Source of the DNA: Halorhabdus sp. CBA1104
Lineage (GTDB): Archaea > Halobacteriota > Halobacteria > Halobacteriales > Haloarculaceae
Length of the DNA: 64,000 bases
Assembly: GCF_009690625.1 (NCBI RefSeq)
Contig: NZ_CP033878.1
Span: 2,232,001 to 2,296,000 of the forward strand
Reading direction: 5' to 3'
Position 1 is the first letter of the stretch, and every line of letters starts with the position of its first letter. The notes beneath the pieces are model-generated. The model searched no databases, was not told the origin of the DNA, and worked only from the letters and a program-made list of their open reading frames with translations. Positions 10,301 through 33,766 of the stretch are shown piece after piece. Both the position numbers and the translations under genes were made by a program.

Positions 10301-10348
10301 GCTGTCTTAGACTCCTTCATCGAATGCCCGGATCGTAGACCGGCGTCT

Positions 10349-10398
10349 GATCGCCACCAGGTTCATCGCCGTCACTGCCATCAACGGCATCGCCGCTT
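10349..10398 (-). pseudogene. Scrap of the VirB6-like gene (last TM helix region)
   Basis: About 50 bp nearly identical to the stretch encoding PLMAVTAMNLVAI in the 633-aa VirB6-like gene (near 17131-17180) and in the truncated copy at 13628-13677. Nothing else of the gene survives here. It lies 50 bp beyond the stop of the last partner gene, so it marks a fifth, decayed tail unit at the far end of the cassette array. Confidence 0.65.
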
Positions 10399-10448
10399 CG
10401 GAGGCTCCAGGACCCTTCAGAACAGCTCCCAGTGGGTCGTTTCGAACC

Positions 10449-11171
10449 CTACGTCTCGCCAATGCCATCGCCGTGGATGTCGAGTTTCCCGACCCCCTGC
10501 ACCAGATACTCCTCCGGTGGTTCCTCGCCCATGTGCAGGTATAGATCTCGTATCTGTGCCATCACGTGTTCCACCACCAACTCGTGGAAGTCCTCTTCGT
10601 AGGTGAACCCCTCCTCGAACTCTAAGGCTGGGATGGCACACACGATCTGTTCGTCCTCGGGGTAGTTCGGGAACGTCCCGTAATCGTTTGCCTCTCGCTC
10701 GTTGAGCACTTCCCGAACGAACACCGGGGCAACGTCCAGTATCTCACTTCCCTGGAAGCGGAACACCTTCAGCACCACCACACCCTCCAGGTTGATCGAC
10801 GGCTTCTCAATGAATGCTGCTGGATCGGCCAACGCCTCGTAGAAGTCTCTGAATTGCTCGTGGAATCGGTCCAACGGGTAATTGATCAATGCTTCGAGTC
10901 CCGCATCGAGGTGTTCCGGATCCCACATCGGATCCAGGATGGCTGCCTCGGGAAACTCCTGTTGGGCCGCGTATCGGGCGCGTTCCTCGACCTGGCACAT
11001 GATCCGCTGCTCGTCGTCCGTCCGGTCGTCTGGTTCGTGGGGGTAGTCGTCGGTTCCGTGGTAAGTGATCGCTCCAGACCAATCCATCGCAATTTGGTGG
11101 TCTAATCCCTTCTCATCCGTTACTAGGACGGCAACTTCTTCATCGTCATAATTTACCAGTTCTGCTTCCAT
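10449..11171 (-). CDS. Tail-partner protein, subtype A (cassette 4)
   Basis: 240 aa, ATG 11171, soluble and acidic, no signal or TM. It belongs to a four-member family in this array. Shared framework: an N-terminal beta-rich region with IAMDWSG, then DDYPHEPDDRTDDEQRIM, QVEERARYAAQQEFPEA and a helical FxEQFRDFYEAL block; C-terminal half ends FHELVVEHVMAQIRDLYLHM, GEEPPEEY. Subtype A is marked by DPMWDPEHLDAGLEALINY. It starts 3 nt after the stop of its subtype A tail. Possible roles are immunity protein, chaperone or adaptor for the tail; the sequence does not decide. I recognise no Pfam family. Confidence 0.7.
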   Translation of the reverse strand: MEAELVNYDDEEVAVLVTDEKGLDHQIAMDWSGAITYHGTDDYPHEPDDRTDDEQRIMCQVEERARYAAQQEFPEAAILDPMWDPEHLDAGLEALINYPLDRFHEQFRDFYEALADPAAFIEKPSINLEGVVVLKVFRFQGSEILDVAPVFVREVLNEREANDYGTFPNYPEDEQIVCAIPALEFEEGFTYEEDFHELVVEHVMAQIRDLYLHMGEEPPEEYLVQGVGKLDIHGDGIGET

Positions 11172-11174
11172 GGG

Positions 11175-11909
11175 TCACTCTTCCTCCTTCTCGAATAGCT
11201 CGTGGCTGTTCGCTTCATCCGCACTCCCTCCAGCCGACTCGCCATCGCCCGAACCGCCAGTGCCGTAGTACTCACTCACCGTATCTCGTGTGTACTCACT
11301 TACCGCCGACGCGCTCTCTGTCACTGCTGTCTTCGCTTCTTTGAACGTCCCCAACGCTCCCTTATCGATACTTCGCGCTGCCATGTACCCGCCAATCCCG
11401 CCCGCAGCCGCCTGCGCTCCCGTCGCTAACGCCATCCCTGCCACGCCTGCTGCACCAAGCCCAGAGCCAGCGATCGCTGTGCCGACTGCCACTGAAACAC
11501 CACCCTTCGCTATCTCCTTCGCCATTCCCTTTGCCGTGCTATCATCACTCAGCTTCGACTCGATCATCTCGTCGCGCGCTTCTAACTGTTCGGCCAGGTG
11601 CTCGTCGCCACCGGCCATCTCCATGTAGGCCCCCTTCTCCATTACCACGCTCTCGTCGCTCTCGGCTTCGGACGCCTCGTCTTCAGCACCCACCTCGCTT
11701 TCGAGTCTGTCGAGGCGACCCTCCACGTCTCCACTACGCTCCTCGCTCGATGGCTCTTCGTACTCCTCACGCCCGGGCTCGGTGTATTCCTCGCGCTTGC
11801 CCCCCTCGTCGGCGACACCGTCTCCGTACTTATCCAGCGATGACTGTTCTAAGTCCGGCGTCGTGTAAATCGACCGCCCAACGCCACCACTCACCACGCT
11901 CGTCGTCAC
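11175..11909 (-). CDS. Orphan VirB6 tail, subtype A (cassette 4), 5'-truncated
   Basis: About 244 aa with no ATG start (first usable codon is GTG at 11909, directly at the stop of the upstream partner gene). Homology to the full-length tail begins at TTPDLEQSSLDKYG (about residue 16). Then follow an acidic linker, DVEGRLDRLESEVGAE (coiled coil), a helical region, and a Gly/Ala-rich hydrophobic stretch (about 125-180: AVGTAIAGSGLGAAGVAGMA). The end is Gly/Ser/Glu-rich. It lacks the membrane domain, so it is probably a silent or displaced tail, like orphan CT modules in polymorphic toxin loci. Confidence 0.62.
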   Translation of the reverse strand: MTTSVVSGGVGRSIYTTPDLEQSSLDKYGDGVADEGGKREEYTEPGREEYEEPSSEERSGDVEGRLDRLESEVGAEDEASEAESDESVVMEKGAYMEMAGGDEHLAEQLEARDEMIESKLSDDSTAKGMAKEIAKGGVSVAVGTAIAGSGLGAAGVAGMALATGAQAAAGGIGGYMAARSIDKGALGTFKEAKTAVTESASAVSEYTRDTVSEYYGTGGSGDGESAGGSADEANSHELFEKEEE

Positions 11910-12652
11910 TAGTCGTAGTATTCCTCGTCTTCAGTCGTCAGTGGCTTGCCCCAGATATCCGTTTCCTTGCAGTACTCCGGCGGTTCCTCACCGACGTGGT
12001 GGTAGACATCTCTAAGTTGGGCCAGCAGATGCTCGATGATGAATATCTGGAACCCATCCGGGAATTCGTAGGCTCCATCGTCGAATTCTATCGGTGGCAA
12101 CGTGATCTGGAACTTCGTCAAGTGCGGTTCGCCTACTAGTTCCTCGTATCGTGACTCCCTGTGGGTGTAGTGAGCCTCGCCCGACTCGTCTCTATATTTG
12201 ATTACTGGCGTCGGTACGTATGCCACCTCGTCGTCCTCGTTGACCAGAAACGGCTGGAAAAGGATCTCCGCCGTTTGCTCGGGCACTTCCGGCTCTGAAG
12301 CGGGCTCGGTGAGCATTCGATAGCAATCCCGAAACTTCTCGGCGAAGTCGTCCACGTGGAGCGTCTCTAAAGCCAGCATCGCCCGGTCCAGTTCTGCCGG
12401 AATCCACCCTGCCGGCAGGATATCTGCATCCGGAAACTCCTGTTGGGCCGCGAGTTTCGCCCGCTCTTTTACCTGCGTCATCAACTTCTGCTCTTCGAAC
12501 GTTCGGTCGGCTGGGTCGTGGGGGTAGTCGTCGGTTCCGTGTTCTCGAATTGTTCCATCCCACTCAATCGTTAACCGGTGTTCATAGCCATTCTCATCAA
12601 ATACCTGTACCCCACAATCCTTCTCATCATGTCCCAGTATTTTCGTATTCAT
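11909..12652 (-). CDS. Tail-partner protein, subtype B (cassette 3)
   Basis: 247 aa from ATG 12652. Over its last 170 residues it is almost identical to the partner at 15387-16139 (for example LPAGWIPAELDRAMLALETL and EEPPEYCKETDIWGKPLTTE). The first 75 residues differ clearly (MNTKILGHDEKDCGVQVFDE against MKTDILGHDDKAIGVEVIDE), so the gene is mosaic. It starts 19 nt after the stop of a subtype B tail. Soluble, acidic, no membrane segment. Role as for the other partners. Confidence 0.7.
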   Translation of the reverse strand: MNTKILGHDEKDCGVQVFDENGYEHRLTIEWDGTIREHGTDDYPHDPADRTFEEQKLMTQVKERAKLAAQQEFPDADILPAGWIPAELDRAMLALETLHVDDFAEKFRDCYRMLTEPASEPEVPEQTAEILFQPFLVNEDDEVAYVPTPVIKYRDESGEAHYTHRESRYEELVGEPHLTKFQITLPPIEFDDGAYEFPDGFQIFIIEHLLAQLRDVYHHVGEEPPEYCKETDIWGKPLTTEDEEYYD

Positions 12653-12671
12653 ATTTCACTTAGTTGAAATG

Positions 12672-13781
12672 CTAATACTTTGTATCATCAGCGCCTTTCG
12701 CATCCCCTCCGGCCGACTCGCCATCGCCCGTCCGCCACTCCGCCGTTTTCACCGAGCCCTTCTCCGTCCAGTCTTTCAGCTCCGACTTGAAGTCTGATAG
12801 CTCACTCTTGAACGAGTTCTTCAGGTCCTTCCCCTTCCCGATTTTCGACGTGATCGATTCCACTCCAGTTCCAGCGATCCCTTGGCTAGCTCCGAGCACT
12901 GCGGCACCTGCTACTGCGCCTGCCGCTACCACCGGTGCCGCTCCACCCGCTGCTGCTAGTCCCACGCCTGCTGCCACCGCTCCCTTCACCGCATCTCCAC
13001 CAATTCCACGCAGATACTTGTTCCCATCATCACCCTGGGCCTGGTCCACTGTCCGTGATTTGTTCATCACGTCGTACATCAGCTTGCCCTGTTCCTCCTC
13101 GTCCATCTTCGTCATCGCTTCACCCAACTCCTCGCGCTCGATCTCCTCGAAGTGGATATCCGACGCTGTCGGGTTCTCCAGATCCGACAGTGACTCCTCG
13201 GCCCCATCGGACGATTCGGTGCTCTCTGTCGACTCTGAATCGTCCGCGGTGGATGTCTCGGACTCGCTCTCCGGTGACGCGTATTCCTGCCGGTCGCTGT
13301 CGGCCTCGTCCAGGCGGTCACTTTCTAAGGCCGACATCGGCGTCTGCTCTAAGTCCGGCGCTGTATCGTTGACCGTCTGCGAGTCGCGCTCGTCTCCACC
13401 ACCACCGCCAGCAGCCGACGCCGCTGCCGGTGCCGGGCCGCCCCCAAACCGGTTGTTCACTCCCGTCTGATCCCCACCGCCCATCACGCCGCCAGCTATA
13501 CCGCCCCCACCGCCCGACACCGCACCGCTCGCCTTGCTCGCCCCGCCTTTCATCGCACCCTTCGCTTGGCCTGTCATCGCACTGGCCACACCACCCATCG
13601 CACCGCTCAACCACTTCACGACGTACGTGATCGCCACCAGATTCATCGCCGTCACTGCCATCAGCGGCATCGCTGCCGCTAACAGCGGATGTACCGGACT
13701 CCCCCACTGGAACGCTCCGAAAAACTGCTGTTCGAGTGCTCCGTTTCTTCGAGACCCGATACTGCTGCGATAATGCAACAC
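12672..13781 (-). CDS. Orphan VirB6 tail, subtype B (cassette 3), 5'-truncated
   Basis: Up to 369 aa, but the frame opens only with GTG at 13781 and the first 28 residues are unrelated to anything nearby. From SPVHPLLAAAMPLMAVTAMN it copies the last TM helix and the whole tail of the 633-aa protein: Gly-rich linker, TAPDLEQTPMSAL, Ser/Asp/Glu-rich linker, IHFEEIEREELGEAMTKMD, a hydrophobic Ala/Gly stretch and a conserved C-terminus (ELKDWTEKGSVKTAEWRTGD). The linker after MSAL differs most. It is the longest truncated copy and carries enough homology to recombine with the active gene. Confidence 0.62.
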   Translation of the reverse strand: MLHYRSSIGSRRNGALEQQFFGAFQWGSPVHPLLAAAMPLMAVTAMNLVAITYVVKWLSGAMGGVASAMTGQAKGAMKGGASKASGAVSGGGGGIAGGVMGGGDQTGVNNRFGGGPAPAAASAAGGGGGDERDSQTVNDTAPDLEQTPMSALESDRLDEADSDRQEYASPESESETSTADDSESTESTESSDGAEESLSDLENPTASDIHFEEIEREELGEAMTKMDEEEQGKLMYDVMNKSRTVDQAQGDDGNKYLRGIGGDAVKGAVAAGVGLAAAGGAAPVVAAGAVAGAAVLGASQGIAGTGVESITSKIGKGKDLKNSFKSELSDFKSELKDWTEKGSVKTAEWRTGDGESAGGDAKGADDTKY

Positions 13782-13792
13782 GACTCTCTATC

Positions 13793-14539
13793 CTACATTC
13801 CCTCTAGCAGCAATTCTTCGGCCGATCCGTCTTCGTCGCCGTAGATGTCTAATTTTCCGTGCCCCTGTACCCGGTATTCCCGCGGTGGCTGCTCGCCCAT
13901 GTTCAGGTAGATATCTCGTATTTGGGCCATCAGGTGATTGACCAGAAAATCCGGGAAGTGCTCCTCGAACGTGATGTGGTCCTCGAACGCTATTCGGGGC
14001 ATACTACAAACAATGAGTTCCTCGCGCGGGTACTCCCACGTCTTCCCCGTCGAGTGTGCCGTTCCGTCTGTCCGCTCGTAAACTATCTCGATGTCTGAGA
14101 CCTCTACAACCTGGCCGTCACGTACTCGAAATGGCTTGGCAATCCCCGACGTCTCTGGGTCCATGTCCGGGTCGTCCACGAACTCTGACGGCCGCTGCAA
14201 CGCTTCGTAGTAGTCTCTGAACTGCTCTTGGAACTCTGCTAACGGGTAGTTCGTCAGCGCTTCGAGCCCTTCTTCGATATGCTCCGGGTCCCACAGCGGG
14301 TCCAAGATGTCTGCCTCGGGAAACTCCTGTTGGGCCGCGTATCGGGCGCGCTCCTCGACCTGGCACATGATTCGCTGCTCCTCGTCTGTTCGGTCGTCTG
14401 GGTCGTGGGGGTATGATTCTTGAGAATGTCTTTGAATGCGTCCATTCCATTCGATGGTGATGACATGTCTGTTTTCGCGTTCATCATAGACCTCTACCCC
14501 ACAATTTTCTTCTTTGTGTCCGACAACTTTTGCTTCCAT
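13793..14539 (-). CDS. Tail-partner protein, subtype A (cassette 2)
   Basis: 248 aa if started at ATG 14539 (MEAKVVGHKEENCGVEVYDE), which aligns with the starts of the other partners; an upstream ATG at 14569 is possible. It shares YPHDPDDRTDEEQRIMCQVE and EERARYAAQQEFPEADILDP with the subtype A partner at 10449, and VQGHGKLDIYGDEDG with its C-terminal VQGVGKLDIHGDG. The middle (residues about 125-185) differs between the two. It lies 26 nt downstream of its subtype A tail. Soluble acidic protein of unknown fold. Confidence 0.7.
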   Translation of the reverse strand: MEAKVVGHKEENCGVEVYDERENRHVITIEWNGRIQRHSQESYPHDPDDRTDEEQRIMCQVEERARYAAQQEFPEADILDPLWDPEHIEEGLEALTNYPLAEFQEQFRDYYEALQRPSEFVDDPDMDPETSGIAKPFRVRDGQVVEVSDIEIVYERTDGTAHSTGKTWEYPREELIVCSMPRIAFEDHITFEEHFPDFLVNHLMAQIRDIYLNMGEQPPREYRVQGHGKLDIYGDEDGSAEELLLEGM

Positions 14540-14565
14540 ATTGCCATTATCCAATTTTCCAATCG

Positions 14566-15390
14566 TCATGCGTAATCATCACCTTCAAATCCATCTGACT
14601 CCCCGCCACCCGACTCGCCTTCGCCCGAACCGCCAGGCAGGGCGTACGAATACGTTTCTTTTGCTTTCGACTTTACACCACTCGTCGCCTCCGACACGCG
14701 TTCGAGGCCGCCTCGCACTGACCCTTCGCCGACCATCCGCGACGCTGCGTAACCGCCAATACCGCCTGCTGCCCCGCCGATCGCACCACCTAGGGCCGCA
14801 CCTGCTGCCGTCCCGACTGGTCCCGCGATCGAACCGCCGATGCCACCCAGTGCCGCTCCCACCGTTTGCCCTGCGCCCGCGCCCGCTGCTCCGGCAACCG
14901 CGCCTTTCGCCGCCTCCTGACCCATCGCCGTCGACTCGTCGGGCTCGGACAGTGACGCCATCTTCTGGTCCATCGCCACCATCGTCTTTGCCATCTCCTC
15001 GTTGTCCGTCATCGACTTCGCTTCATCCACTGTTAATTCTCCCGGCGTGTAGGATTCTGCTGGATCGTCCTTGCTCTCGGCGCTTACCTCGCTTTCGAGC
15101 CTGTCGAGGCGACCCTCCACGTCTCCACCGCTACTCCCCTCGTCAGTCGATGGCTCGGCGTATTCGCGCTCGCCCTGGCCGCCCCCCAAACTACCCTCAC
15201 CGTACTGATCCAGCGACGATTGCTCCAAGTCCGGCGCCGTGTTCTCGACCGCCTGCGAGTCGTGACTGTCATCCTGACCCCCACCACCGCCCGCCGCTGC
15301 AAGTAACACGCCGACAACGCAATTACTCCTGAATGGTTGCGTTGCGTATCTTGTCCCGCAAACGCTACCACTCACTGCTCGTGCTGTCAA
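14566..15390 (-). CDS. Orphan VirB6 tail, subtype A (cassette 2), 5'-truncated
   Basis: About 274 aa opened only by TTG at 15390, overlapping the stop of the preceding partner gene. The first 28 residues look random; homology to the full-length protein starts at LLAAAGGGGGQDDSHDSQAV and continues through ENTAPDLEQSSLDQYG. Subtype A marks follow: DVEGRLDRLESEVS, a helical stretch with MAKTMVAMDQKMASL, then a long glycine-zipper-like hydrophobic run (about 165-225) and a Gly/Glu-rich end. It has no membrane anchor of its own. Probably silent unless recombined onto the 633-aa gene. Confidence 0.62.
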   Translation of the reverse strand: MTARAVSGSVCGTRYATQPFRSNCVVGVLLAAAGGGGGQDDSHDSQAVENTAPDLEQSSLDQYGEGSLGGGQGEREYAEPSTDEGSSGGDVEGRLDRLESEVSAESKDDPAESYTPGELTVDEAKSMTDNEEMAKTMVAMDQKMASLSEPDESTAMGQEAAKGAVAGAAGAGAGQTVGAALGGIGGSIAGPVGTAAGAALGGAIGGAAGGIGGYAASRMVGEGSVRGGLERVSEATSGVKSKAKETYSYALPGGSGEGESGGGESDGFEGDDYA

Positions 15391-16139
15391 ATGTCGTAGT
15401 ATTCCTCGTCTTCCGTCGTCAGTGGTTTGCCCCAGATGTCCGTTTCCTTGCAGTACTCCGGCGGTTCCTCACCCACGTGCCGATAGACGTCTCTGAGTTG
15501 GGCCAGCAGATGTTCGATGATGAATATCTGAAACCCGTCCGGGAATTCGTAAGCACCATCGTCGAATTCTATCGGTGGCAATGTGATCTGGAACTTCGTC
15601 AAGTGCGGTTCGCCTACTAGTTCCTCGTATCGTGACTCCCTGTGCGTGTAATGAGCCTCGCCCGACTCGTCTCTATATTTGATTACCGGCGTCGGTACGT
15701 ACGCCACCTCGTCGTCCTCGTTGACCAGAAACGGCTGGAAAAGGATCTCCGCCGTTTGCTCGGGCACTTCCGGCTCTGAAGCGGGCTCGGTGAGCATTCG
15801 ATAGCAATCCCGAAACTCCTCGGCAAAGTCGTCCACGTGGAGGGTCTCTAAGGCCAACATTGCCCGGTCGAGTTCGGCCGGGATCCACCCTGCCGGTAGG
15901 ATGTCTGCATCCGGAAACTCCTGTTGGGCCGCGAGTTTTGCCCGCTCCTCGACCTGAACCATGATCCGCTGTCCTTCGTCTGTCCGGTCTTCTGGTTCCT
16001 TTGGATACGTTCCTTCATCTCGAGAGTGCTTCTCTATAGAACCATCCCATTCGATATTTACAATATGACGGATGTCCCGCTCGTCAATTACCTCAACGCC
16101 GATTGCTTTATCATCGTGCCCCAATATGTCAGTTTTCAT
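15387..16139 (-). CDS. Tail-partner protein, subtype B (cassette 1, paired with the full-length gene)
   Basis: 250 aa from ATG 16139; this start aligns with its paralogues and lies 13 nt after the stop of the 633-aa gene, whereas upstream codons overlap that gene. Domain layout as in the other partners: N-terminal VEVIDERDIRHIVNIEWDG, DRTDEGQRIMVQVEERAKLA, helical FRDCYRMLTEP, C-terminal FQIFIIEHLLAQLRDVYRHV. As the only partner next to an intact VirB6-like gene, it is the best candidate for the active immunity, chaperone or adaptor protein. Confidence 0.72.
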   Translation of the reverse strand: MKTDILGHDDKAIGVEVIDERDIRHIVNIEWDGSIEKHSRDEGTYPKEPEDRTDEGQRIMVQVEERAKLAAQQEFPDADILPAGWIPAELDRAMLALETLHVDDFAEEFRDCYRMLTEPASEPEVPEQTAEILFQPFLVNEDDEVAYVPTPVIKYRDESGEAHYTHRESRYEELVGEPHLTKFQITLPPIEFDDGAYEFPDGFQIFIIEHLLAQLRDVYRHVGEEPPEYCKETDIWGKPLTTEDEEYYDI

Positions 16140-16152
16140 TGTTATATGTAAG

Positions 16153-18054
16153 TTATGAGAAACGGTTGTCCGAGTGGTCAACACCACTCCCGCCGGCCGA
16201 CTCGCCATCGCCCGTCCGCCACTCCGCCGTTTTCACCGAGCCCTTCTCCGTCCAGTCTTTCAGCTCCGACTTGAGGTCTGATATCTCACTCGTGAGCGAG
16301 TTCTTCAGATCCTTTCCTTGGCCGATTTTCGTCGTAAGCGATTCCACTCCAGTTCCAGCGATCCCTTGGCTAGCTCCGAGTACTGCTGCACCTGCTACCG
16401 CGCCAGCCGCTACCATCGGCGCTGCTCCACCAGCAGCTGCTATCCCTACTCCTGTCCCCACCACCCCCTTCACTGCATCTCCACCGATTCCACGCAGGTA
16501 CTTGTTCCCATCATCACCCTGGGCTTGGTCCACCGTGCGTGATTTGTTCATCACGTCGTAGAGCAACTTACCCCGCTCTTCGTCGTCCATCTTCGTCATC
16601 GCTTCACCCATCTCCTCGCGCTCAATTTCCTCGAAATGAATGTCCGATGCTTTCGGACGCTCCAGGCCCGACGGCGACTCACTCGCCCGATCGATCGTGT
16701 CCACGCTCTCTGTCGGCCCCGAGTCTGCCTCCGTGATCGACTCGCTTCCCAACGCTTCGCCATCGCTTTCCGGCGACCCGTATTCCTGATGACCACTCTC
16801 GCTGTCACCCTCGGCCAGGCGCTCGTTATCCAGCGCTGACATCGGCGTCTGCTCCAACTCCGGCGCTGTATCGTTGACCGTCTGCGAATCACGCTCGTCA
16901 CGACCGCCACCGCCAGCAGCCGACGCCGCTGCCGGTGCTGGGCCGCCGGCAAACTGGTTGTTCACTGCCGTCCGGTCGCCACCGGCCATCCCACCGACCA
17001 TGCCGCCACCCACACCGCCCGACACCGCACTGCTCGCCTTGCTTGCCCCGCCTTTCATCGCACTCTTCGCTTTGCCCGTCATCTTGCTCGCCGCACCACC
17101 CATCGCACCGCTCAACCATTTGACCACGTACGTAATCGCCACCAAGTTCATCGCCGTCACTGCCATCAGCGGCATCGCCGCCGCCAGCAACGGATGCACG
17201 CTACTCCCCGACGCGAACGCCGCGTCAACTCCGCCTGACTCGACCGATCCGCCGGCCAGCATCGCCAGCGATCCGTGGGCAAACTTCAATCCGACCGCGA
17301 ACACGCCTGCGATCAAGATGCCACCGGGGATCAACATCCCCGTCGCTTTGAACAACTTCTCGCCCACCGCCTTTGCGTACTTCAGCGGGCCGAGTTCCCC
17401 GATCCAGAACACGATCAACAAGGGATACAGTCCGTACGTCAGGTAGACGATCACTTTCCGAGCGACCAAGACGACGACCAGCAGCAACTGCCCGACCGTG
17501 ACGATCAACCCCATCACGACGCCGAACAACAACAGCACGAACGACCCCGCACCGCCCGTGTCCGGACTCGCCGACACCGTGAACGTCGTCGACTCCAAGA
17601 ACAAGTCGATCGTCGCGTTCGATACCTCGAACGCTGCTGCGAACAATCCGCGACCCCACAGCGTCGGCCCCCAACCCGGCGGATTGACGATAAACAGCGA
17701 TAACGTGGCCGCCAGCGCACGCCCGGCGAACCGGTACGGATCCGACTTCTTGCCGTCCGGGAAGAACTGAAACATCCCGAGGTGGGCCAGCGCAAAGACT
17801 GTCAACAGCGCGAAATAGATCCCCACCGACAGCTCCCACATGTCCTGAAACTGCTTGAGTGCAGTCGGGTTCAGATGCAACAGCGTCTGCATCGACCCGT
17901 TGAGGAGATACCCGATCAGCGTGAACACCGCGTTGAAAATCTGCGTGTTGATCCACTCGACGAGCGCGTCGAGACCGAAACTGATCAACACGATGCCGTT
18001 GCTGGAGAGGTTGCCAACCAACCACTGGACCTCACCCGCAAACAGCACCCCCAT
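16153..18054 (-). CDS. VirB6/TrbL-like polytopic membrane protein with exchangeable C-terminal tail
   Basis: 633 aa. Residues 1-315 hold about six hydrophobic helices with the signature shared by its two paralogues: GRALAATLSLFIVNPPGWG (112-129), LVARKVIVYLTYGLYPLLIV (196-215) and GELGPLKYAK. This matches VirB6/TrbL channel subunits. Residues 320-380 are Gly/Ala-rich and flexible. The motif TAPELEQTPMSAL (396-408) opens a soluble tail: acidic linker, helical IHFEEIEREEMGEAMTKMDD (about 472-491), hydrophobic Ala/Gly hairpin (529-562) and a basic-acidic helical end. It is likely to sit in the cell membrane with the tail exposed. It heads the tail/partner array; three displaced tails lie downstream. 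Confidence 0.78.
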   Translation of the reverse strand: MGVLFAGEVQWLVGNLSSNGIVLISFGLDALVEWINTQIFNAVFTLIGYLLNGSMQTLLHLNPTALKQFQDMWELSVGIYFALLTVFALAHLGMFQFFPDGKKSDPYRFAGRALAATLSLFIVNPPGWGPTLWGRGLFAAAFEVSNATIDLFLESTTFTVSASPDTGGAGSFVLLLFGVVMGLIVTVGQLLLVVVLVARKVIVYLTYGLYPLLIVFWIGELGPLKYAKAVGEKLFKATGMLIPGGILIAGVFAVGLKFAHGSLAMLAGGSVESGGVDAAFASGSSVHPLLAAAMPLMAVTAMNLVAITYVVKWLSGAMGGAASKMTGKAKSAMKGGASKASSAVSGGVGGGMVGGMAGGDRTAVNNQFAGGPAPAAASAAGGGGRDERDSQTVNDTAPELEQTPMSALDNERLAEGDSESGHQEYGSPESDGEALGSESITEADSGPTESVDTIDRASESPSGLERPKASDIHFEEIEREEMGEAMTKMDDEERGKLLYDVMNKSRTVDQAQGDDGNKYLRGIGGDAVKGVVGTGVGIAAAGGAAPMVAAGAVAGAAVLGASQGIAGTGVESLTTKIGQGKDLKNSLTSEISDLKSELKDWTEKGSVKTAEWRTGDGESAGGSGVDHSDNRFS

Positions 18055-18154: not shown

Positions 18155-19501
18155 TCATCGACCGTTATCGCGACGATATTTCGACTGGCCCGACGTCTCG
18201 TCGTCCTCGTCGGTCGCTGATTCGTCACCGTCAAACTGGCCCCCTGAAAGCTGGGGCTGTTGTAGCTGGGGAGCGTTGCGTTTCAAGACAGAATTTCCCT
18301 CACCGCTACCCGTCCCTCCGCTCCCCCTGGAGACGGGATTGGCCCGCTCGGCGGCTGTACTGGCTGCGGAGTTCGCCCGATCTTTGATCCCCTGTTTGGC
18401 CTTCTTTTTACCCTTCTTGGCCGCCGATTTGGCCCCCTTCTTGACGCCTTTCTTGCTCATCTCTTTGGTAGCCATCATCGCCCCCGACGCAGCGACACTC
18501 GCACCACCCGACGCGACGGCGGCACCCAGTCGCGCGACCGACGTAATACCACCGCCAATTGCACCGAGCATCTGGACCAGCATGAGAGTCGGCAACAGAC
18601 ACGTTGCACCGATGACCATCAGTTTGAAGACGATGGTCGTCAGGTAATCGCTCGAAGATCCTGTGGCGAACACGCCCTCTGCGACAGGGGCACTCCCACT
18701 CACACCCTGAGCCACTACCCCACCACCGAAGACGTGGCTATTACCACTGATGAGAGCTATGCCAGTCGTGAAGATACCCGCAATGAGGATGCCACCAACC
18801 AGTGCCGTGATAGCCGTTTTGAACAGTTTCGAAGAGAGTTGCTTGCCGTACCGCAGTGGACCAGCGTCGGCTACCCAGAACACGATCAACACGGGATAGA
18901 GTCCATACGTAAAGAAGACAATGACTTGCCTGGCGACGAGGAGGGCAAGGAGGACGAACTCGAATACCAGTATCGGTAAGCCAATGAAGAAGGCGAATCC
19001 GAGAAGAATGAATCCACCACCCAGTGCACCGGCGAGGGCCTCGCTCTGGAAGGAAAAAGTCGTCCCGACCTGATCGAGGTACACCGTACAGATCTCGTTT
19101 ACGACGACGAACGCCCAGCCGAACGCTCCTTTCGAGAACAGATCCGATCCCCAGTCGGGCGGGTTGACGATCCACAGAGAAAGTGTCGCAGCGAGCGCTC
19201 GTGAGAAGAATCGGGCTGGGTCGGTCTGTTGAGCGCCTGGAAAAATCTGTGCCAATCCCAGCATCGAAGCAGCATACAAAGTGAGGATGCTGAAAAAGGC
19301 GAGTGTCCCCACGGTCCAAATTTCCTCGAAGGGCTGTAGCTGGGCCGGATCAAGCGTCAAAAAGGCATTCGTGAGATCTGCAAAGAGCTCCAGCATGAAA
19401 TCGAACACTGTGTTGAACAGGTCGTTGATGATCGATCGAATCGTGTCCTTGATGCCGAACATAAGGACGATCATCCGCATGTTCTGCAAAAGCCCAATCA
19501 T
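18155..19501 (-). CDS. VirB6/TrbL-like polytopic membrane protein, paralogue 2
   Basis: 448 aa (start 19501; ATG 19462, MFGIKDTIRS, is an alternative). The membrane part, about residues 30-325, carries SRALAATLSLWIVNPPDWG and LVARQVIVFFTYGLYPVLIV, the same signatures as the 633-aa paralogue. The tail is short and unusual for a halophile: a lysine-rich stretch (KEMSKKGVKKGAKSAAKKGK, about 347-366) that could contact nucleic acid or lipid head groups, then LKRNAPQLQQPQLSGGQ, which echoes the TAPxLEQ motif. Same strand and probably same operon as the neighbours on both sides (gaps 100 and 66 nt). Confidence 0.75.
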   Translation of the reverse strand: MIGLLQNMRMIVLMFGIKDTIRSIINDLFNTVFDFMLELFADLTNAFLTLDPAQLQPFEEIWTVGTLAFFSILTLYAASMLGLAQIFPGAQQTDPARFFSRALAATLSLWIVNPPDWGSDLFSKGAFGWAFVVVNEICTVYLDQVGTTFSFQSEALAGALGGGFILLGFAFFIGLPILVFEFVLLALLVARQVIVFFTYGLYPVLIVFWVADAGPLRYGKQLSSKLFKTAITALVGGILIAGIFTTGIALISGNSHVFGGGVVAQGVSGSAPVAEGVFATGSSSDYLTTIVFKLMVIGATCLLPTLMLVQMLGAIGGGITSVARLGAAVASGGASVAASGAMMATKEMSKKGVKKGAKSAAKKGKKKAKQGIKDRANSAASTAAERANPVSRGSGGTGSGEGNSVLKRNAPQLQQPQLSGGQFDGDESATDEDDETSGQSKYRRDNGR

Positions 19502-19567
19502 ACATCACGAACCCTTCTCTGGTATACTGCGTGTGATACTAACCGCTGGATATACTGCAAGACCATC

Positions 19568-20503
19568 TCAAATCACCTCCATCACGTACTGAAATCCAAG
19601 GAAGTTGATAACCAACAGTGGCGTGACTAATTTGAAAAAATCGAGTATCAGCGTCGAAATGCCGCCACCAGCCGACCCAAACTTACCCGCCGGCGGTTGG
19701 GCCTGCTCTGCCGTGCCACCGGCGAACGTCCCGCCCGAGGAATCGTACTGGTCGAAGTCGGTCAGTATCGTACTCCCCCAGATGAGTGCCGTGATGAACA
19801 CCCCAAAGATGAGTAATTTCCCACTCGCCGCGATGAACTTCTTTCCCATCTGATTTACTCGCGACCAGGGGCCGACTTCAACGAGTTGGAACCCCATCAA
19901 CACCGGTAACAACGCGAAGGTGACGTAGACGATGAGCATCCTGACAACAAGGAGAATGATAAATCCAACCCCGGCTACCAGTAACACACCCGAGGCGAGC
20001 AAACCCCACAAAAGCGCCACGAACAAGCCGAACTGATCGACGAGTTGTGTACTGATCGAGACCGCGATAGAGAGATCGTACGTCGTTTTGTAGTAAATCC
20101 CAGTCAACCCATGAGAGAATGCAACACTGAACGAGATTAGCGGACGCGAAATGAAGACGATAATGAACGTTTTGAGGAACTTTTCGATGTAGTACTGCAG
20201 GTCAGCGCTGTCTTTCCCCGGGAAAAACTGTGACAACAGCAGAACGTAGACGATAGAGAGAGCACCGGCAGCTGCCAAAATACTGAGGGAGAGCCACCAT
20301 AACGTATCTAGCACCTGAACGTCGGCCGGATTCGGGAAAAACAAGAACGTCTCGAATCCCGCCGAGAGAACGACGTTCAACGCATCCATGAGACCGTCGA
20401 CGAAGGTCGTGAGCAGCCACGTTACTGCGTCCTTGAGGACGCTATATACGTCAGGGACGAACGGTAACAACACAATCGACCAGAAAACATCACTCATATA
20501 CAA
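19568..20503 (-). CDS. VirB6/TrbL-like polytopic membrane protein, paralogue 3
   Basis: About 311 aa (ATG 20497, MSDVFWSIVLLPF, is as likely as the codon at 20503). Six or seven hydrophobic helices. The positions equivalent to the paralogue signatures read IEKFLKTFIIVFISRPL, VVRMLIVYVTFALLPVLMGF and VEVGPWSRVNQMGKKF, so it is the most diverged of the three and has no long tail. A Gly/Gln/Ala-rich loop (about 255-280) precedes the last helix. Transcribed divergently from the protease/pilin operon, with about 140 AT-rich bp between them. Confidence 0.72.
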   Translation of the reverse strand: MYMSDVFWSIVLLPFVPDVYSVLKDAVTWLLTTFVDGLMDALNVVLSAGFETFLFFPNPADVQVLDTLWWLSLSILAAAGALSIVYVLLLSQFFPGKDSADLQYYIEKFLKTFIIVFISRPLISFSVAFSHGLTGIYYKTTYDLSIAVSISTQLVDQFGLFVALLWGLLASGVLLVAGVGFIILLVVRMLIVYVTFALLPVLMGFQLVEVGPWSRVNQMGKKFIAASGKLLIFGVFITALIWGSTILTDFDQYDSSGGTFAGGTAEQAQPPAGKFGSAGGGISTLILDFFKLVTPLLVINFLGFQYVMEVI

Positions 20504-20644
20504 CTATTCGTTCAAGCTGGTAGCAGCCCGTTGCTGTCGATCAGTACCCCCACACAGCACAGTTTGTTTCACCACTCCGTATATTCCAATTGCATAAATA
20601 TTATTCCATCTGCGTATGAATATCCAATTGGTGCGTTCAATATA

Positions 20645-21348
20645 GTGAACCGTTCGCATATTGCTATAGGAGTTCTAATAGGGTTCGTCGTCATCACCGC
20701 CAGCTGGACTGGAGCGGTTAATCATCGTGTTACCGAGCTAAAAGCACAGTTGGAGACGCTCGAAGACTCTCAGGACGTACTCGGTGTGTTTGCCGGTGTC
20801 AACCGAAGTGGCATCGAGCCCACGAGAGAATCGGTGTCACTCTATGCCTACAGCACACGTTCCGGAGACGGGATTGCGATTCCTGCGACTGTCGTTTCGA
20901 TCCCAGTCGATGGGCTCTATACAGATATCAGTGACGTGGCCCAGACATCAGACGTCCAGCGTTCGATGGCCAGGGCGTGGACTGTCGCAAGTGAGAGTGA
21001 CACGCCGCCAGCCCACCAGGGTGCGGTGCTCCAATTGCAACCCCCGTCCGAATGGGGGACCGTCGGCGGCGGGAGTGCAGCACTGTCGCTCGCGCTCGGG
21101 TTTGCTGGGACCAACTCCTGTACCCGGATAAACGAGAGTGTCGCTGCGACGGGCGGCCTCACCACAGACGGGACCATCGTGGACGTACAGTACGTGCGTG
21201 AGAAAGCCCAAACCGCAAGTGATCGGGGGATACAGGTATTTCTCGTCCCCCAAATCAGGGTATTGATGTAAGTGGCATCAGCGTCGTGGAAGTTGGGACG
21301 TTCGAACAGGCCGCAGATCGAGCCCTAGAGTCGAGTGCAAGTTGCTAA
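20645..21348 (+). pseudogene. Membrane-anchored Lon-type (S16) protease domain, frameshifted
   Basis: Best start is GTG 20645 (NRSHIAIGVLIGFVV, one N-terminal TM helix). Then come an extracellular-type linker and a Lon C-terminal protease fold: GGGSAALSLALGF carries the catalytic Ser, ATGGLTTDGTIVDV the conserved core, and YVREKAQTA the catalytic Lys. After VFLVPQ (about 21255) the frame runs into a stop at 21271. One frame over, GIDVSGISVVEVGTFEQAAD continues to TAA 21346-21348 as expected for the family. A one-base deletion or two-base insertion would explain it. It may be inactive, or the truncated protein may keep the Ser/Lys dyad. First of three co-directional genes with the pilin. Confidence 0.62.
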
Positions 21349-21463: not shown

Positions 21464-21823
21464 ATGACGCGCAGATGCAACCAGCGATTGACGTCTGAAC
21501 TTGGACAGATACTACGAATACTGGCCATCCTGACGGTCGTGTTGACACTAACCGTTGGCCCTGCCCTTGCGCAAAATAATTCGAGTGCCCCGACCCAGCA
21601 AGATCTAAAAAATAAGATCAATCAAGTCGGGCAATTTCTCTCGATAGTCATCGTCGCCGTAGCAGTACCCAATGGGGCATTTGGGCTATTCCAGTGGATG
21701 ACTGCTGGGACGGACACGGAACAAAGTGACAAAGGCCGTAAACGGATACGCAACTCTTTCATCGGTGCCGGAGGGGCCGCAATCGTCATGATGGCAGTGC
21801 AAGTGCTTGCCAACATGGTCTAA
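21464..21823 (+). CDS. VirB2/TrbC-like pilin
   Basis: 119 aa from ATG 21464. A basic N-terminus and hydrophobic signal end at ALAQ (residues 33-36), a plausible signal peptidase I site. The mature part has two TM helices (about 57-79 and 100-118) joined by a short charged loop (TDTEQSDKGRKRIRNSF). Size, signal peptide, two-helix hairpin and polar cytoplasmic loop are the hallmarks of VirB2/TrbC pilins and of the archaeal conjugation-like pilins. It is the likely main filament subunit of the apparatus. Lies 31 nt before the large surface protein gene. Confidence 0.75.
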   Translation: MTRRCNQRLTSELGQILRILAILTVVLTLTVGPALAQNNSSAPTQQDLKNKINQVGQFLSIVIVAVAVPNGAFGLFQWMTAGTDTEQSDKGRKRIRNSFIGAGGAAIVMMAVQVLANMV

Positions 21824-21853: not shown

Positions 21854-23674
21854 ATGAAGAAGGAGTTGGTAGCGCTACTGGTCGTTCTCGTCTCGATCAC
21901 AGCAGTCACTGGAGCGATGGTCACGGCCACGGCAGTATCATCGGATCAGGAGCGAGCGTTCTTCTCTGATGACGATGACATCAACGGAAGCCAGTTGTCC
22001 AACCCGAACGAGCCAGAAAATTTTGTGAAAATAGCCGATATTCCGTATTATACCACAAAGCCGGAGTACGAGATTGGAAATACAACACTCTTCGAATACC
22101 AAAAAGACAGTCTGGATAACATAGATTCAGACCTGCGTTCATCCTTTGTATTAGATCGTTCAGAAACTACTGATTCGAATATTATCAAAGACGCACACGT
22201 AACGTTTCTGGGCATACACGGCGGGGCAATGAGTCTGGCACGAAGCGGGCGCCACGGCTCACATGCGCTGGCAAATACGTTTGTAATTGGCTCTGAGGGA
22301 ACAGTGTTATCGCATCTCGACTATCGAATTCGTGAGGATATCCCGCCGGCTGACTACTGTGGACCCAAGGACAAAGACACACGTACCAGGGATTACGACA
22401 ACGATTCGGTTGTGGAAACATTTTGGATTGACGGCTCCCAAACCTGCTATCGATATTCGATGGAGGTCGAAGATACTCGTAGAGTGTCTATCGGTGGAAG
22501 ATCGTTTTCTGGAGAAGACACCATTCAGTATACTGGGCTCACGTCGAATTCCAAAGTGGACCTCAGTATGCGCGGGTCAGTCTCCGTCCGCGTAACCGAA
22601 ACGCGCATCTATCGAGACTGGGACCCGAGGACACGGTATGCAGACGGATGGAGCGACGGCTACTGGGACAGTACAACAGGATCCCCAAGCTTGTATCGGG
22701 AGGATAGTGTTAGTTTGTCGAGTGCATCATATGATACCTTGGTAACTGACACGGGCGATCTAGACATTCACCAACGCATCATCAACGTCAACAACGAAAC
22801 GAGTCACATCGTGCTCACACTGGATGGTCCGCGCGGAAACAATGCTGTTCGTACGAAGCACCTCATGGATCGATTACTCTGGAGCCACCTGACGATCGGG
22901 TCAGGAACTGCATTCGTCGATTCGACCTGGCGAACCTATTCTGCGCGACAGTATACCCAAGCCCGACGGTTTACCGAGAGTGGTTCGAATACTATCCACT
23001 CACCGCCGCAGGTACCCAGAACGTTCTTGATAGGAACAGACCGTCGCCCAACGATCAACCCGGTAGATCGATCGTCATCTGTGTCGAGTTCGCAAATAAT
23101 CGGATTCGAAGGCTACAACGTGACGTTGCCACAGACAAATCACTCTGAGGTAACGATCGATCCGTCGGTCCCGATCGAATATTCGCGTCTCGTAATTCAG
23201 AACGCACCTGGTAACGTCACGTCCTTGAGGACGATCCACGGCAAGCGAGTAGAAGTCGATGTCGACGAAGTACTCCAATATCGGCAACCGAACGTGTCGA
23301 TAACTGCGGTCTCTGATAACCGAGTCAAGATTCACGTCGAAGATCCAGCTACGAACCAGCCGTTGGGAGGTCGCCAAGTGCGTCTCTACGGCGTCGATCC
23401 CAACCGAACAAACCCCAACGGTGTCGCCATTACGGACGCTTCTGGTGACGTTGTGGGTGAACGAACGAATACGCTGGTCAGAGCGAGAGTGCAACAAGAC
23501 GACTGGGAAAGCCCAACAGGATCAGTGTTTTACGGACAAACAGTGGCATCGAGGACGTTCCTTCCGAATGTACTGCTATTGGAGCGAGCGCATTCACTAC
23601 TGGAGACGATACTCCTTGTAGCGCCGCTCGTGTTTCTGTATGGGTACATCCGTCACTTTGGATTGTTCGAATGA
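21854..23674 (+). CDS. Large exported, C-terminally anchored surface protein
   Basis: 606 aa. N-terminal signal peptide (MKKELVALLVVLVSITAVTG), a long extracellular region rich in Ser/Thr/Asn with several N-glycosylation sequons, an Ig-like or carboxypeptidase-regulatory-like repeat near residues 485-560 (VEDPATNQPLGGRQVRLYG), and a C-terminal TM helix (LETILLVAPLVFLYGYI). Codon use is more AT-rich than in housekeeping genes. No enzyme motif. Being 31 nt behind the pilin gene, it is probably an accessory, adhesin or scaffold of the pilus-like machine. I do not recognise its family. Confidence 0.65.
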   Translation: MKKELVALLVVLVSITAVTGAMVTATAVSSDQERAFFSDDDDINGSQLSNPNEPENFVKIADIPYYTTKPEYEIGNTTLFEYQKDSLDNIDSDLRSSFVLDRSETTDSNIIKDAHVTFLGIHGGAMSLARSGRHGSHALANTFVIGSEGTVLSHLDYRIREDIPPADYCGPKDKDTRTRDYDNDSVVETFWIDGSQTCYRYSMEVEDTRRVSIGGRSFSGEDTIQYTGLTSNSKVDLSMRGSVSVRVTETRIYRDWDPRTRYADGWSDGYWDSTTGSPSLYREDSVSLSSASYDTLVTDTGDLDIHQRIINVNNETSHIVLTLDGPRGNNAVRTKHLMDRLLWSHLTIGSGTAFVDSTWRTYSARQYTQARRFTESGSNTIHSPPQVPRTFLIGTDRRPTINPVDRSSSVSSSQIIGFEGYNVTLPQTNHSEVTIDPSVPIEYSRLVIQNAPGNVTSLRTIHGKRVEVDVDEVLQYRQPNVSITAVSDNRVKIHVEDPATNQPLGGRQVRLYGVDPNRTNPNGVAITDASGDVVGERTNTLVRARVQQDDWESPTGSVFYGQTVASRTFLPNVLLLERAHSLLETILLVAPLVFLYGYIRHFGLFE

Positions 23675-24102: not shown

Positions 24103-26466
24103 TTAGCTAACCGTGCCGGGCGAGTCCGATTCAAGAATTTGGTGGACAGATTGTCGCTCGTCGTCTGGAATATCTGTCCAGTCGATCATCTCATTATCGT
24201 AGAGTAATGCCCAGACGTTCATATTGCTGTCAATGACGTGATGTTCGAATTCGTTCGAAATGACTCGCATGCGCATCTTCCCTTTGTCAGTGACATACAG
24301 TAGCGATTCAGAGTACTCCGCTGAGTTACCCGCCTGGGCTTGTAATACGAAATCCCGTTCTCGGGGAGTGAGATCGAGTGCTTCGATCGCTGTGTCGCCG
24401 ATATCCTGGTGTCGCATCAGCGCACGAATGTCACACTGGTCGTAGATTTCCTTCGCCTTCGAATTGGCCATAAATTCATCGACGGTCTGACTGATGAGAG
24501 TGAGACCGCTTCCATAGTGGCGGCTGTGCCGTGCAAACAGGTTGAGCATGTCCAGTGCCTGTTCGTGACCCAGCATATAGTGTGCCTCGTCGATCATGAC
24601 CACCATGTTCTCGGTGTTCGCCTTCGCTCGCTGGAATAGCCAGTCGAGCACGATATGCATAATGAGCCCTTCGTTACTGCCATCGGCGACGCTCGAGAGA
24701 TCGAACTGTACGATGCGATCTTCGAGGCGGACGTTCGTTTCTCCATTGAGATTCGATCGCTGCCCGCCCTGTTTGAAGTCTTCCAGTCCCAGCAAGACAC
24801 TATGAGCGTAATCGGCAATTCGTTCGGCTTGCTCGCGTTCTTCGACAGATGTTTCTGTGTTTATTGTCGTTATTTCTGAACGAACTGATTCTGGAACGTC
24901 GAGGAACTCTCCTGGTGGATCGCCGTTGGACATCTTGCGTAAGACATCTATCACATCCCCAATTTGAGGACTGGGTTGGTGATGGGTGCCGATATCCTTC
25001 GTAATCCCCCGTTCGAGGTACGCATACCGGATCGCCCGTCTGAGGACACCTTCTTCTTCTTTGCCTAACTCGCGTTTGCCTCTGAAGTGCGATTCGAACA
25101 ACCCCATCACACTCCGGATCTTGTCGTCGTACGGATCACCTTCGATATCGTCGATGCTTTCTACCTGCTTGATTTCGAGTGGATTGATCGTGGTCTGGTT
25201 GTCGATCGTTACTCTCTGCCCACCTACCGCTTCCACCAGATCACCGAATCCACCCACAGGATCGATAATGAGAACTTCTGTCTCGGGATCCATCATCAAT
25301 CGACGCCACATGACGAGTTTGGCTAGATAGGACTTCCCAGAGCCGATCTTCCCTGATATCAACATGTTGTGGCCCGACTGAGCAAACCGATCCACGATTA
25401 TTGGAGCGTTGGTTGACATCTGAAAGCCCATGAGGACACCGCTTGACTCCACGACAGACTTATCAGTAAATGGGTAGGTTGTGCCGAGAGCCTCAAGGTC
25501 CATAATTTGGGTATTCTTGACGCTATCTGTTCCGAGAGGAGCAACGGCATTCTGCGCTTCGAGCTGTCTATCGTACAAGGTCGTCACACGAGCGTTCGAT
25601 TGGGAGAGGATTTGTTTGAGTTCCTTCGTTGCTTCGTCTAGCGTCTCTTCGGAGTCGGAAATAACTTCAAAGTAGACGCCGAAGTCGAACAATTTCGTCG
25701 AACCCTCAGTCAATCCCTCCCGTAGACGGTCAACGTGAGAGAGTTGCTTTTCTTCTTCAATCGTGTTGAGTTTCCCATCACTTTTTTTCCGACGGATTTG
25801 AGAAGTGAGTCGGGTTGCTTTCACATCGAGTTTTCGTTTCATTTGCTCGGAATCACGTGGCCAGATCTGGTACGAAACGCGCAATTCTGCTCCATTTACC
25901 GATAACCCACTCGTGAATGCCTGGTCGAGCCATCCAAGGGCCACTCGGTTCGGAAAACTCGAAATTATAAGTATCCTAGCGTATCGTTCCTCACCAGAAT
26001 CCCCTAACCGTTTGACATAGCTTTGGGTTTCTGTGATACGATCGGGGGCGACATTGACTCTGGCTGATTCACTCCGTTTGTTCTCATCGCCAATGATACC
26101 GACATCAGTCGAGTCTTCAGAGTGTTTATCTTGTTGAACTGCTTCAATATGCTCTGAAAGCGTTTCTTCTGATATATCTTCACTCGATTGTTCGAGTCGG
26201 CGTGCTGCCTCTGTGAGAACCTCTGTATCGATATCGTCTTTCGAAGTCTCTGCAGATCCCATACTGAGATCGGTTTCGAGAAGGCCGTCAGTTGGCGCCA
26301 TTAGAACAATTGCACCGATGAAAACAATACCGCCACCAAGGAGGATTCCAACGGTTGGAACTACCCCGAACGTGTCTAAAAAGTCCTGAATCAATAACGG
26401 TACCAACGTGGTACTATCATCAATACCACTGCTCGTAAACTCGATCGGCGTCGCACTATCTATCAT
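24103..26466 (-). CDS. VirB4/TraC-family secretion ATPase
   Basis: 787 aa. One or two N-terminal hydrophobic helices (about 20-57) anchor it; residues about 160-300 match the second half of the VirB4 N-terminal (CagE/TrbE) domain (ARILIISSFPNRVALGWLDQ). The AAA/HerA-like motor follows: Walker A GKIGSGKSY (372-380), IDPVGGFGDL strand, Walker B VVMIDEAHYML (about 622-632), then SQTVDEFM sensor region. It powers pilus assembly or substrate transport at the membrane. The start overlaps the stop of the upstream gene by 4 nt (ATGA). The membrane helices at the N-terminus are unusual for VirB4 and recall archaeal variants. Confidence 0.88.
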   Translation of the reverse strand: MIDSATPIEFTSSGIDDSTTLVPLLIQDFLDTFGVVPTVGILLGGGIVFIGAIVLMAPTDGLLETDLSMGSAETSKDDIDTEVLTEAARRLEQSSEDISEETLSEHIEAVQQDKHSEDSTDVGIIGDENKRSESARVNVAPDRITETQSYVKRLGDSGEERYARILIISSFPNRVALGWLDQAFTSGLSVNGAELRVSYQIWPRDSEQMKRKLDVKATRLTSQIRRKKSDGKLNTIEEEKQLSHVDRLREGLTEGSTKLFDFGVYFEVISDSEETLDEATKELKQILSQSNARVTTLYDRQLEAQNAVAPLGTDSVKNTQIMDLEALGTTYPFTDKSVVESSGVLMGFQMSTNAPIIVDRFAQSGHNMLISGKIGSGKSYLAKLVMWRRLMMDPETEVLIIDPVGGFGDLVEAVGGQRVTIDNQTTINPLEIKQVESIDDIEGDPYDDKIRSVMGLFESHFRGKRELGKEEEGVLRRAIRYAYLERGITKDIGTHHQPSPQIGDVIDVLRKMSNGDPPGEFLDVPESVRSEITTINTETSVEEREQAERIADYAHSVLLGLEDFKQGGQRSNLNGETNVRLEDRIVQFDLSSVADGSNEGLIMHIVLDWLFQRAKANTENMVVMIDEAHYMLGHEQALDMLNLFARHSRHYGSGLTLISQTVDEFMANSKAKEIYDQCDIRALMRHQDIGDTAIEALDLTPRERDFVLQAQAGNSAEYSESLLYVTDKGKMRMRVISNEFEHHVIDSNMNVWALLYDNEMIDWTDIPDDERQSVHQILESDSPGTVS

Positions 26467-28229: not shown

Positions 28230-28689
28230 CTTTATTTAATTCCCCGAAAACATCATCAAACGCGATTTTATTCCACAGTGTTCCGGTGCTATCCGCTTCG
28301 TCAGAGTCTTGGATTGTGTACTGACCAGTGCTTGTTGACGTATCTCCCAGTTCAGAAATGGTATGGACGATATCCAGATGTGTCACCCGGCCTCGGCCGA
28401 CTGCCCGTGGTTTGAGATAATACGTATCAGGAGTGATTCGGCGTTTGAACGCAGCTGGAGCCCAGCTGAGGGGGGTTTGCCCCTCAGGCGTTTGAACGAT
28501 GACTAGTCCAACAAGTGAAGTCATTAAAACGATAGTTCCGATAGAAATTGAGAGAGGGATTTGGCCGATATACAAACTCGGAAGGACGACAACGAGCGGT
28601 ATCGTCCCGAGCGTGATTAGCTCGTTAAATGTCAGTCCCAAGATGAGATTGGTTCGCAGTATTTTCCCGGGTATTGGTACTGTCTTCAT
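28222..28689 (-). CDS. PrgI/VirB3-like small membrane protein
   Basis: 155 aa from ATG 28689 (MKTVPIPGKILRTNLILG); a GTG at 28716 would add nine residues. A TATA-like ACTTATACG lies about 30 bp upstream, fitting near-leaderless initiation at 28689. Two close TM helices (about 22-62) form a hairpin, followed by LSWAPAAFKRR and a soluble tail, the layout of PrgI-type proteins that precede VirB4 in conjugation loci. It is the first gene of the VirB4 operon and overlaps the next gene by 8 nt. Confidence 0.65.
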   Translation of the reverse strand: MKTVPIPGKILRTNLILGLTFNELITLGTIPLVVVLPSLYIGQIPLSISIGTIVLMTSLVGLVIVQTPEGQTPLSWAPAAFKRRITPDTYYLKPRAVGRGRVTHLDIVHTISELGDTSTSTGQYTIQDSDEADSTGTLWNKIAFDDVFGELNKDD

Positions 28690-28839
28690 ATCATGCAATA
28701 CGATCTCCACATACACGTATAAGTTTCTAATTGAACTAACATACTAATTGTTAGGATGTACTAACATGTATTGTGAGGAGGCGGCGAAGCTTCGGTAAGG
28801 ACTGTAAAAGCGAGAGTATTGACGGGGAAAGGAATACTA

Positions 28840-33290: not shown

Positions 33291-33766
33291 CATGAAGTCC
33301 GCGATTCCCGTCTGCTTGCTCGTATCTCTCCCACCTTTTTCCGCTCGGGGTCGCTCACTGCGTTCGCGACCGCTCGCGCAAAAATCTGGACCAAAAAAAA
33401 CCATCCTCGCTTCGCTCGGATCGTACCGACTTCTCACATGAAGTCCGCGATCCCCGTCTGCTTGCTCGTATCTCTCCCACCTTTTTCCGCTCGGGGTCGC
33501 TCACTGCGTTCGCGACCGCTCGCGCAAAAATCTGGACCAAAAAAAAACCATCCTCGCTTCGCTCGGATCGTACCGACTCCTCACATGAAGTCCGCGATCC
33601 CCGTCTGCTTGCTCGTATCTCTCCCACCTTTTTCCGCTCGGGGTCGCTCACTGCGTTCGCGACCGCTCGCGCAAAAATCTGGACCAAAAAAAAACCATCC
33701 TCGCTTCGCTCGGATCGTACCGACTCCTCACATGAAGTCCGCGATCCCCGTCTGCTTGCTCGTATC
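33291..33766. repeat. Tandem array of the polD2 3' end and terminator (three units plus parent)
   Basis: CATGAAGTCCGCGAT recurs at 33291, 33437, 33584 and 33731, giving units of 146, 147 and 147 bp. Each unit copies the last dozen codons of polD2 (ending GIADFM and stop on the minus strand) plus about 100 bp of downstream DNA containing a T-run on the minus strand (8, 9 and 9 T) and a CG-rich inverted-repeat-like segment. It is a head-to-tail triplication of a transcription end region. Confidence 0.9.

Follow-up and report, generated by a model that had tools for sequence, protein, structure and literature searches.

Contact-dependent growth inhibition (CDI; CdiA-CT/CdiI) and Rhs systems are built from a constant delivery domain, a variable C-terminal tip and a co-varying partner encoded next to it, with displaced orphan tip/partner modules that retain a stretch of homology through which they can recombine. 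Such modules, and recombination at a shared motif, are already known from CDI and Rhs, as are toxin-immunity pairs with DUF4157 from haloarchaea. Here we describe a comparable locus in a window of 64 000 nt (positions 2,232,001 to 2,296,000 of contig NZ_CP033878.1) from the 2.63 Mb chromosome of the haloarchaeon Halorhabdus sp. CBA1104. A protein of this locus, likely a VirB6-like channel subunit of a type IV secretion system (T4SS), has a C-terminal tail that differs between close relatives; its gene is followed by a partner gene and by an array of orphan tail/partner cassettes. Unlike in CDI and Rhs, the carrier is an archaeal VirB6-like subunit rather than a two-partner-secreted filament or an Rhs cage, all partners come from one homologous family, and toxicity is putative.

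Other described systems resemble the locus in part. In Halogeometricum borinquense, four effectors associated with a contractile injection system (CIS), three of them with DUF4157, were toxic in Haloferax volcanii and were neutralised by their downstream partners (PMC11566945). In other haloarchaea it is the partner family of the window that we saw in this position, directly after effectors with DUF4157 (eCIS_core), and similar orphan tail/partner units also occur there at loci of extracellular contractile injection systems (eCIS; loci L056 and L070). Unlike in these CIS or type VI secretion system (T6SS) loci, the leader in the window is a T4SS membrane subunit, and eCIS_core was not found in the window genome by the same family search that was positive in 51 genomes of our sample of 391 haloarchaeal genomes (loci of this sample are labelled L and genomes G). 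In T4SS entry exclusion (TraG-TraS, TraG-Eex; PMC11493245) an allele-specific partner gene likewise abuts a VirB6 homologue, whereas here the partner is soluble, common to contractile-injection loci and stored in arrays of tail/partner cassettes. Interbacterial T4SSs of Stenotrophomonas and Xanthomonas are accompanied by toxin/immunity pairs, the function proposed here, but their effectors are separate secreted proteins, while in the window the putative effector tail is built into the channel subunit. Extended VirB6 proteins also have a large hydrophilic C-terminal extension, whose function is stated as not known (PMC12857230); the extension considered here differs in being exchangeable and in having a cognate partner. 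The literature that we searched, which did not include the survey of polymorphic toxins in archaea by Makarova et al. (mBio 2019; it may mention these families), contained neither a VirB6-borne polymorphic toxin in archaea nor an immunity family common to T4SS and T6SS carriers in archaea.

An earlier note, made from the letters of the window alone, had proposed a VirB6-like gene, four partners and three orphan tails, and all these open reading frames are present where it placed them. On the reverse strand the order is VirB6-like gene (18054-16153), partner 1, tail 2, partner 2, tail 3, partner 3, tail 4, partner 4 and a scar (10396-10348). The full-length VirB6-like protein (633 aa; 16153-18054) consists of a membrane domain (residues about 1-320; 17095-18054), a Gly/Ala-rich linker, a TAPELEQ junction (16849-16865) and a variable C-terminal tail of type A. 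Partner 1 (15387-16139), its predicted immunity protein, is soluble and 250 aa long; an additional in-frame ATG lies upstream at 16208, with the start homologous to those of the other partners at 16139. Orphan tail 2 (14566-15390; type B) has no membrane domain and opens with a TTG that overlaps the stop of partner 1; it is followed by its predicted cognate, partner 2 (13793-14539). Orphan tail 3 (12672-13781; type A) starts at the last VirB6 helix and retains the homology arm, the linker and a TAPDLEQ motif; partner 3 (11909-12652) comes next. Orphan tail 4 (11175-11909) starts at the linker/TPDLEQ, with a GTG overlapping the stop of partner 3, and precedes its predicted cognate, partner 4 (10449-11171). 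A motif coding for TAPxLEQ stands ahead of all four tails (at 16849, 15220, 13344 and 11844). The contrast in start codons drawn previously, ATG in all partners and only GTG or TTG in orphan tails, holds for 4/4 partners and for the three tails: no start codon was found upstream of the TTG, GTG and GTG of orphan tails 2, 3 and 4, respectively. Among partner genes of related loci with products of at least 215 aa, 131 of 143 start with ATG.

The array is not a chance pattern, because 300-nt segments of tail 1 and partner 1 recur ~3.5 kb away, in register and with 85-89% identity, in tail 3 and partner 3, respectively, and because the core of the partner is present four times. The cassettes are of two types. 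Tail and partner of cassettes 1 and 3 match, and those of cassettes 2 and 4 resemble each other, with identities of 87% between partners 1 and 3 and 53% between partners 2 and 4. The VirB6 scrap that had been reported behind partner 4 as 50 bp at 10349 does exist, its size and position being 49 nt at 10348-10396. It matches the segment coding for the last VirB6 helix, both in the full-length gene (17133-17181) and in orphan tail 3 (13628-13676), at 46/49 positions; no other site on either strand of the window reaches a 34/49 match. The orphan tails are open frames with dN/dS (ratio of non-synonymous to synonymous substitution rates) of 0.20-0.43, close to that of the fused tail, several of the dS values being near saturation; for the partners the ratio is 0.08-0.40. 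These values indicate purifying selection on both orphan tails and partners, although some of the divergence may be older than the orphan state. We rejected simple tandem duplication with decay, as the orphan tails are open and conserved.

The membrane domain was found in 11 genomes of the sample and the partner family in 53; the closest named relative among the loci compared is Halorhabdus amylolytica (L035 and L038 on one contig). If the tails are exchangeable, one membrane domain should bear different tails in related strains, a check suggested by the earlier note, and we found this twice. Within Halorhabdus, L038 has a membrane domain 91% identical to that of the window and a type A tail like it, while L039, with a membrane domain 87% identical, bears a type B tail related to orphan tail 2 of the window. 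(The 911-aa product of L039 looks like a VirB6-tail-partner fusion; there is a run of N inside, so that we claim no fusion.) The second case comes from the Haloarcula clade, a different genus within the family (g3, with Haloarcula amylolytica among its members), in which the DNA of L061 (G055) and L050 (G084) is 97.6% identical over 3,252 nt spanning the membrane domain and the linker. The similarity stops sharply right after TAQDLSATS, the counterpart of TAPxLEQ, and the tails beyond are unrelated; the chimeric junction thus falls at the motif where it had been predicted. Moreover, orphan tails of L050 and L047 share 96-97% identity with the tail of L061. Tails therefore vary between relatives, and orphan units occur in the relatives without being fully decayed. 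Copies of the junction segment (62-69 nt) are also found in Haloarcula-clade loci directly downstream of terminal partners (L050) and of solitary partners (L049, L059), and for this reason we take the terminal scar of the window to be the homology arm left behind by a lost cassette. Such patterns are direct genomic evidence of recombination at the junction segment by which cassettes change between the silent and the expressed position. The genome G055 has a truncated fused tail (L061:12123-13859) and no detected partner gene; the locus looks like a disarmed system, as would be expected if a partner-less active tail were harmful.

The partners belong to a single superfamily that is uncatalogued in Pfam. 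A partner gene lies directly downstream of its tail, the gaps being mostly -11 to +60 nt. Similarity between tails correlates with similarity between partners (Mantel test with 5000 permutations, P 2e-4): r was 0.62 over 87 cassettes, 0.72 in T4SS loci and 0.73 in eCIS loci. As related cassettes share ancestry, this correlation shows co-inheritance of tail and partner rather than binding. A mobile array without function was ruled out by this cognate co-variation. An uncharged stretch of at least 20 residues was present in 0/87 partners; being soluble and having no hydrophobic segment, they would act in the cytoplasm. The tails are different: 49/87 have a long uncharged Gly/Ala-rich stretch (at least 25 residues), and since such a hairpin is typical of them they are probably membrane-active. 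GxxxG was not significantly more frequent than composition predicts (mean z 0.18), and no glycine zipper is claimed. The model of partner 2 has a confident alpha/beta fold (mean predicted local distance difference test score, pLDDT, 92). Neither Foldseek nor VIA found a convincing relative for this model (VIA reaching at best Z 5.6 over 77 residues), and for this reason no known immunity fold is named for the partner; its sequence profile matched nothing in PDB.

Outside T4SS loci, partner-family genes sit right behind eCIS_core proteins (matches of profile hidden Markov models in many loci), and in Haloferax larsenii such a pair lies within a contractile-injection cluster with sheath and baseplate genes. 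Either an eCIS_core or a VirB6-like leader, never both, was present in 50/53 genomes with the partner as compared with 12/338 genomes without it (Fisher P 9e-48, computed without correction for relatedness). In four genomes (L052, L053, L054 and L055 in G262, G105, G064 and G032) we observed about 7-15 tandem partner copies or fragments, nearly tail-less, often 4-16 nt apart and with two subtypes alternating; the arrays of L052 and L054, the two with an assignable leader, lie behind an eCIS_core protein. It is possible that these arrays serve as immunity banks. Single genomes with 12-16 eCIS_core effector genes scattered over the chromosome, many with their own partner-family gene, were also seen (L057 in G114; L064-L073 in G173). 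On Haloarcula plasmids typed MPF_T there are solitary or clustered partner genes annotated as hypothetical (L059 on pHH126; L058 in Haloarcula sp. CBA1115). T4SS-linked and eCIS-linked tails have a common architecture, an uncharged Gly/Ala-rich hairpin being present in many of them; homology between the two sets, suggested by uncorrected BLAST, largely faded under local-composition shuffles.

Identification of the carrier relied on context and on fold. The VirB6-like protein has no match in Pfam or NCBIfam, 15 homologues have no VirB6/TrbL Pfam match, and a sequence profile of the membrane domain found no match in PDB. The whole-protein model has a pLDDT of 46; when the membrane part of this low-confidence model was used in Foldseek, the top three matches were R388 TrwI/VirB6 (probability 0.82-0.96, E 0.01-0.04). 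VIA with the same model also ranked R388 TrwI/VirB6 best (Z 9.9 over 232 residues), and Legionella Dot/Icm DotA had Z 7.7. Alongside the locus are genes for a VirB4-type ATPase (24103-26466, reverse strand) and for a T4SS pilin (21464-21823, forward strand; PF18895 above its cut-off). Fold matches and neighbours together make the carrier likely to be VirB6-like, as it had been labelled before, and a putative homologue.

We consider that the observed anatomy, tail swaps, junctions, scars, co-variation and occurrence of the partner family at contractile-injection toxin loci are best explained by a polymorphic toxin-immunity system carried on an archaeal T4SS channel subunit, and we regard this explanation as likely. 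The VirB6-like subunit would bear an exchangeable C-terminal effector tail, and the directly downstream gene would encode its cognate, an immunity protein of the cytoplasm. When the cell touches a neighbour, the T4SS would present or deliver the tail, and kin with a matching partner would survive. In R388, VirB6 forms a pentameric platform beneath the pilus tip (PMC12857230); by analogy, the tail of VirB6 could sit at the contact site. Cassettes made of junction segment, tail and partner would be kept downstream as orphans, until recombination between junction segments (from the last helix to TAPxLEQ) installs one of them at the expressed site, pushing out the former tip and leaving scars behind. 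Orphan partners would be retained for the protection that they continue to give against relatives with the tail in question. In a wider form of this proposal, on which we are evenly divided, VirB6-like proteins with exchangeable membrane-active tails would be a contact-dependent kin-discrimination machine with one immunity superfamily common to it and to archaeal T6SS toxins, so that the banks would protect against two unrelated delivery systems.

Several considerations weigh against the toxin-immunity explanation. Tails and partners have no Pfam or NCBIfam family, and the tails match no known toxin family. Beyond local composition, T4SS-linked tails are only weakly similar to eCIS-linked ones (z>4 in 69 of 1682 pairs versus 15 for decoys). 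The immunity proteins of H. borinquense are comparable to the partners by their position behind DUF4157 effectors, not by established family membership. The TTG and GTG starts of the orphan tails make their expression uncertain. Toxicity, neutralisation, binding of tail and partner, delivery by the T4SS and a membrane target of the tails are all things that we infer. Finally, partners next to VirB6 are also a hallmark of entry exclusion.

A polymorphic form of entry exclusion is the main and strongest rival, with the two other readings considered below doing worse. The tail would be an allele-specific determinant which the partner of a recipient recognises, blocking DNA from kin donors, and the orphan cassettes would be past or foreign exclusion specificities (cf. 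TraG-TraS, TraG-Eex, ICEBs1). In bacterial T4SSs the target of exclusion proteins is indeed TraG, a VirB6 homologue, the determinants lie in the cytoplasm and the gene for exclusion borders on that for VirB6 (PMC11493245), just as the soluble partners of the window adjoin the VirB6-like gene. Still, we think this rather improbable: the same partner family stands beside the eCIS_core effectors of contractile injection, in which entry of DNA plays no part, the tail-less banks of immunity-like partners are left unexplained, and most bacterial exclusion factors are membrane-associated, in contrast to the partners, which have no long uncharged stretch. Also, no match to the coupling protein/relaxase families PF12696, PF02534 and PF03432 was found in the genome of the window, though divergent archaeal versions could escape these models.

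The tail-partner co-variation and the long uncharged stretches of the tails could as well be expected if the partner were a cognate chaperone or adaptor shielding a hydrophobic tail before export, for which Eag chaperones of T6SS effectors provide a model. We hold this to be quite unlikely, as the nearly tail-less tandem partners (L052-L055) and solitary partners (L044, L049, L059) fit immunity instead, the downstream position of the gene is that of immunity genes, and the downstream partners of H. borinquense neutralise toxicity (PMC11566945). Silent cassettes with one expressed locus, and tails that differ between strains, are also reminiscent of antigenic-type variation, in which an exposed channel domain would evade viruses or surface recognition and the partner would be an assembly factor. 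But every variant has its own co-varying partner, partners outlive tails, and genes of the partner family also come after effectors of another secretion system, all of which makes variation of this kind very improbable.

A new kind of polymorphic contact system had been suggested at the outset. Its toxin-immunity side was strengthened, because the partner family is common to eCIS/T6SS toxin loci with DUF4157; by the same observation the family is not private to T4SS, and the locus would be a new carrier of a broader haloarchaeal system, not a separate invention. Most of what is known of contact-dependent antagonism among archaea concerns the haloarchaeal T6SS; if our explanation is true, a second, T4SS-based carrier is added, tip swapping becomes visible directly in genomes, and an uncatalogued immunity family is defined in about one in seven of the haloarchaeal genomes sampled. 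The function of C-terminal extensions of VirB6 would become directly testable in genetically tractable haloarchaea.

The rest of the T4SS island, flanked by ordinary chromosomal genes, is as follows. Besides the tailed protein it encodes two more VirB6-like proteins (18155-20503, reverse strand), paralogue 2 of 448 aa without a swappable tail (18155-19501) and paralogue 3 of 311 aa (19568-20503). A divergent gene on the forward strand (20531-21271), conserved in the T4SS loci seen, codes for a protein that has a hydrophobic stretch at its N-terminus and weakly matches a Lon-C/S16-like protease domain; it is a possible candidate for a processing protease that could release the tail. Downstream of the pilin gene, on the same strand, a conserved 606-aa protein with a C-terminal hydrophobic helix (21854-23674) is likely a surface component. 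Two further conserved island proteins, the second of them small, are encoded on the reverse strand at 26463-28229 and 28222-28716. The window also contains a gene for the DNA polymerase II large subunit (DP2) with a LAGLIDADG intein (33728-38758), and close to it are an OapC gene (39271-40038) and a Cdc6/Orc gene (41998-43689), which place the T4SS island near a likely replication origin.

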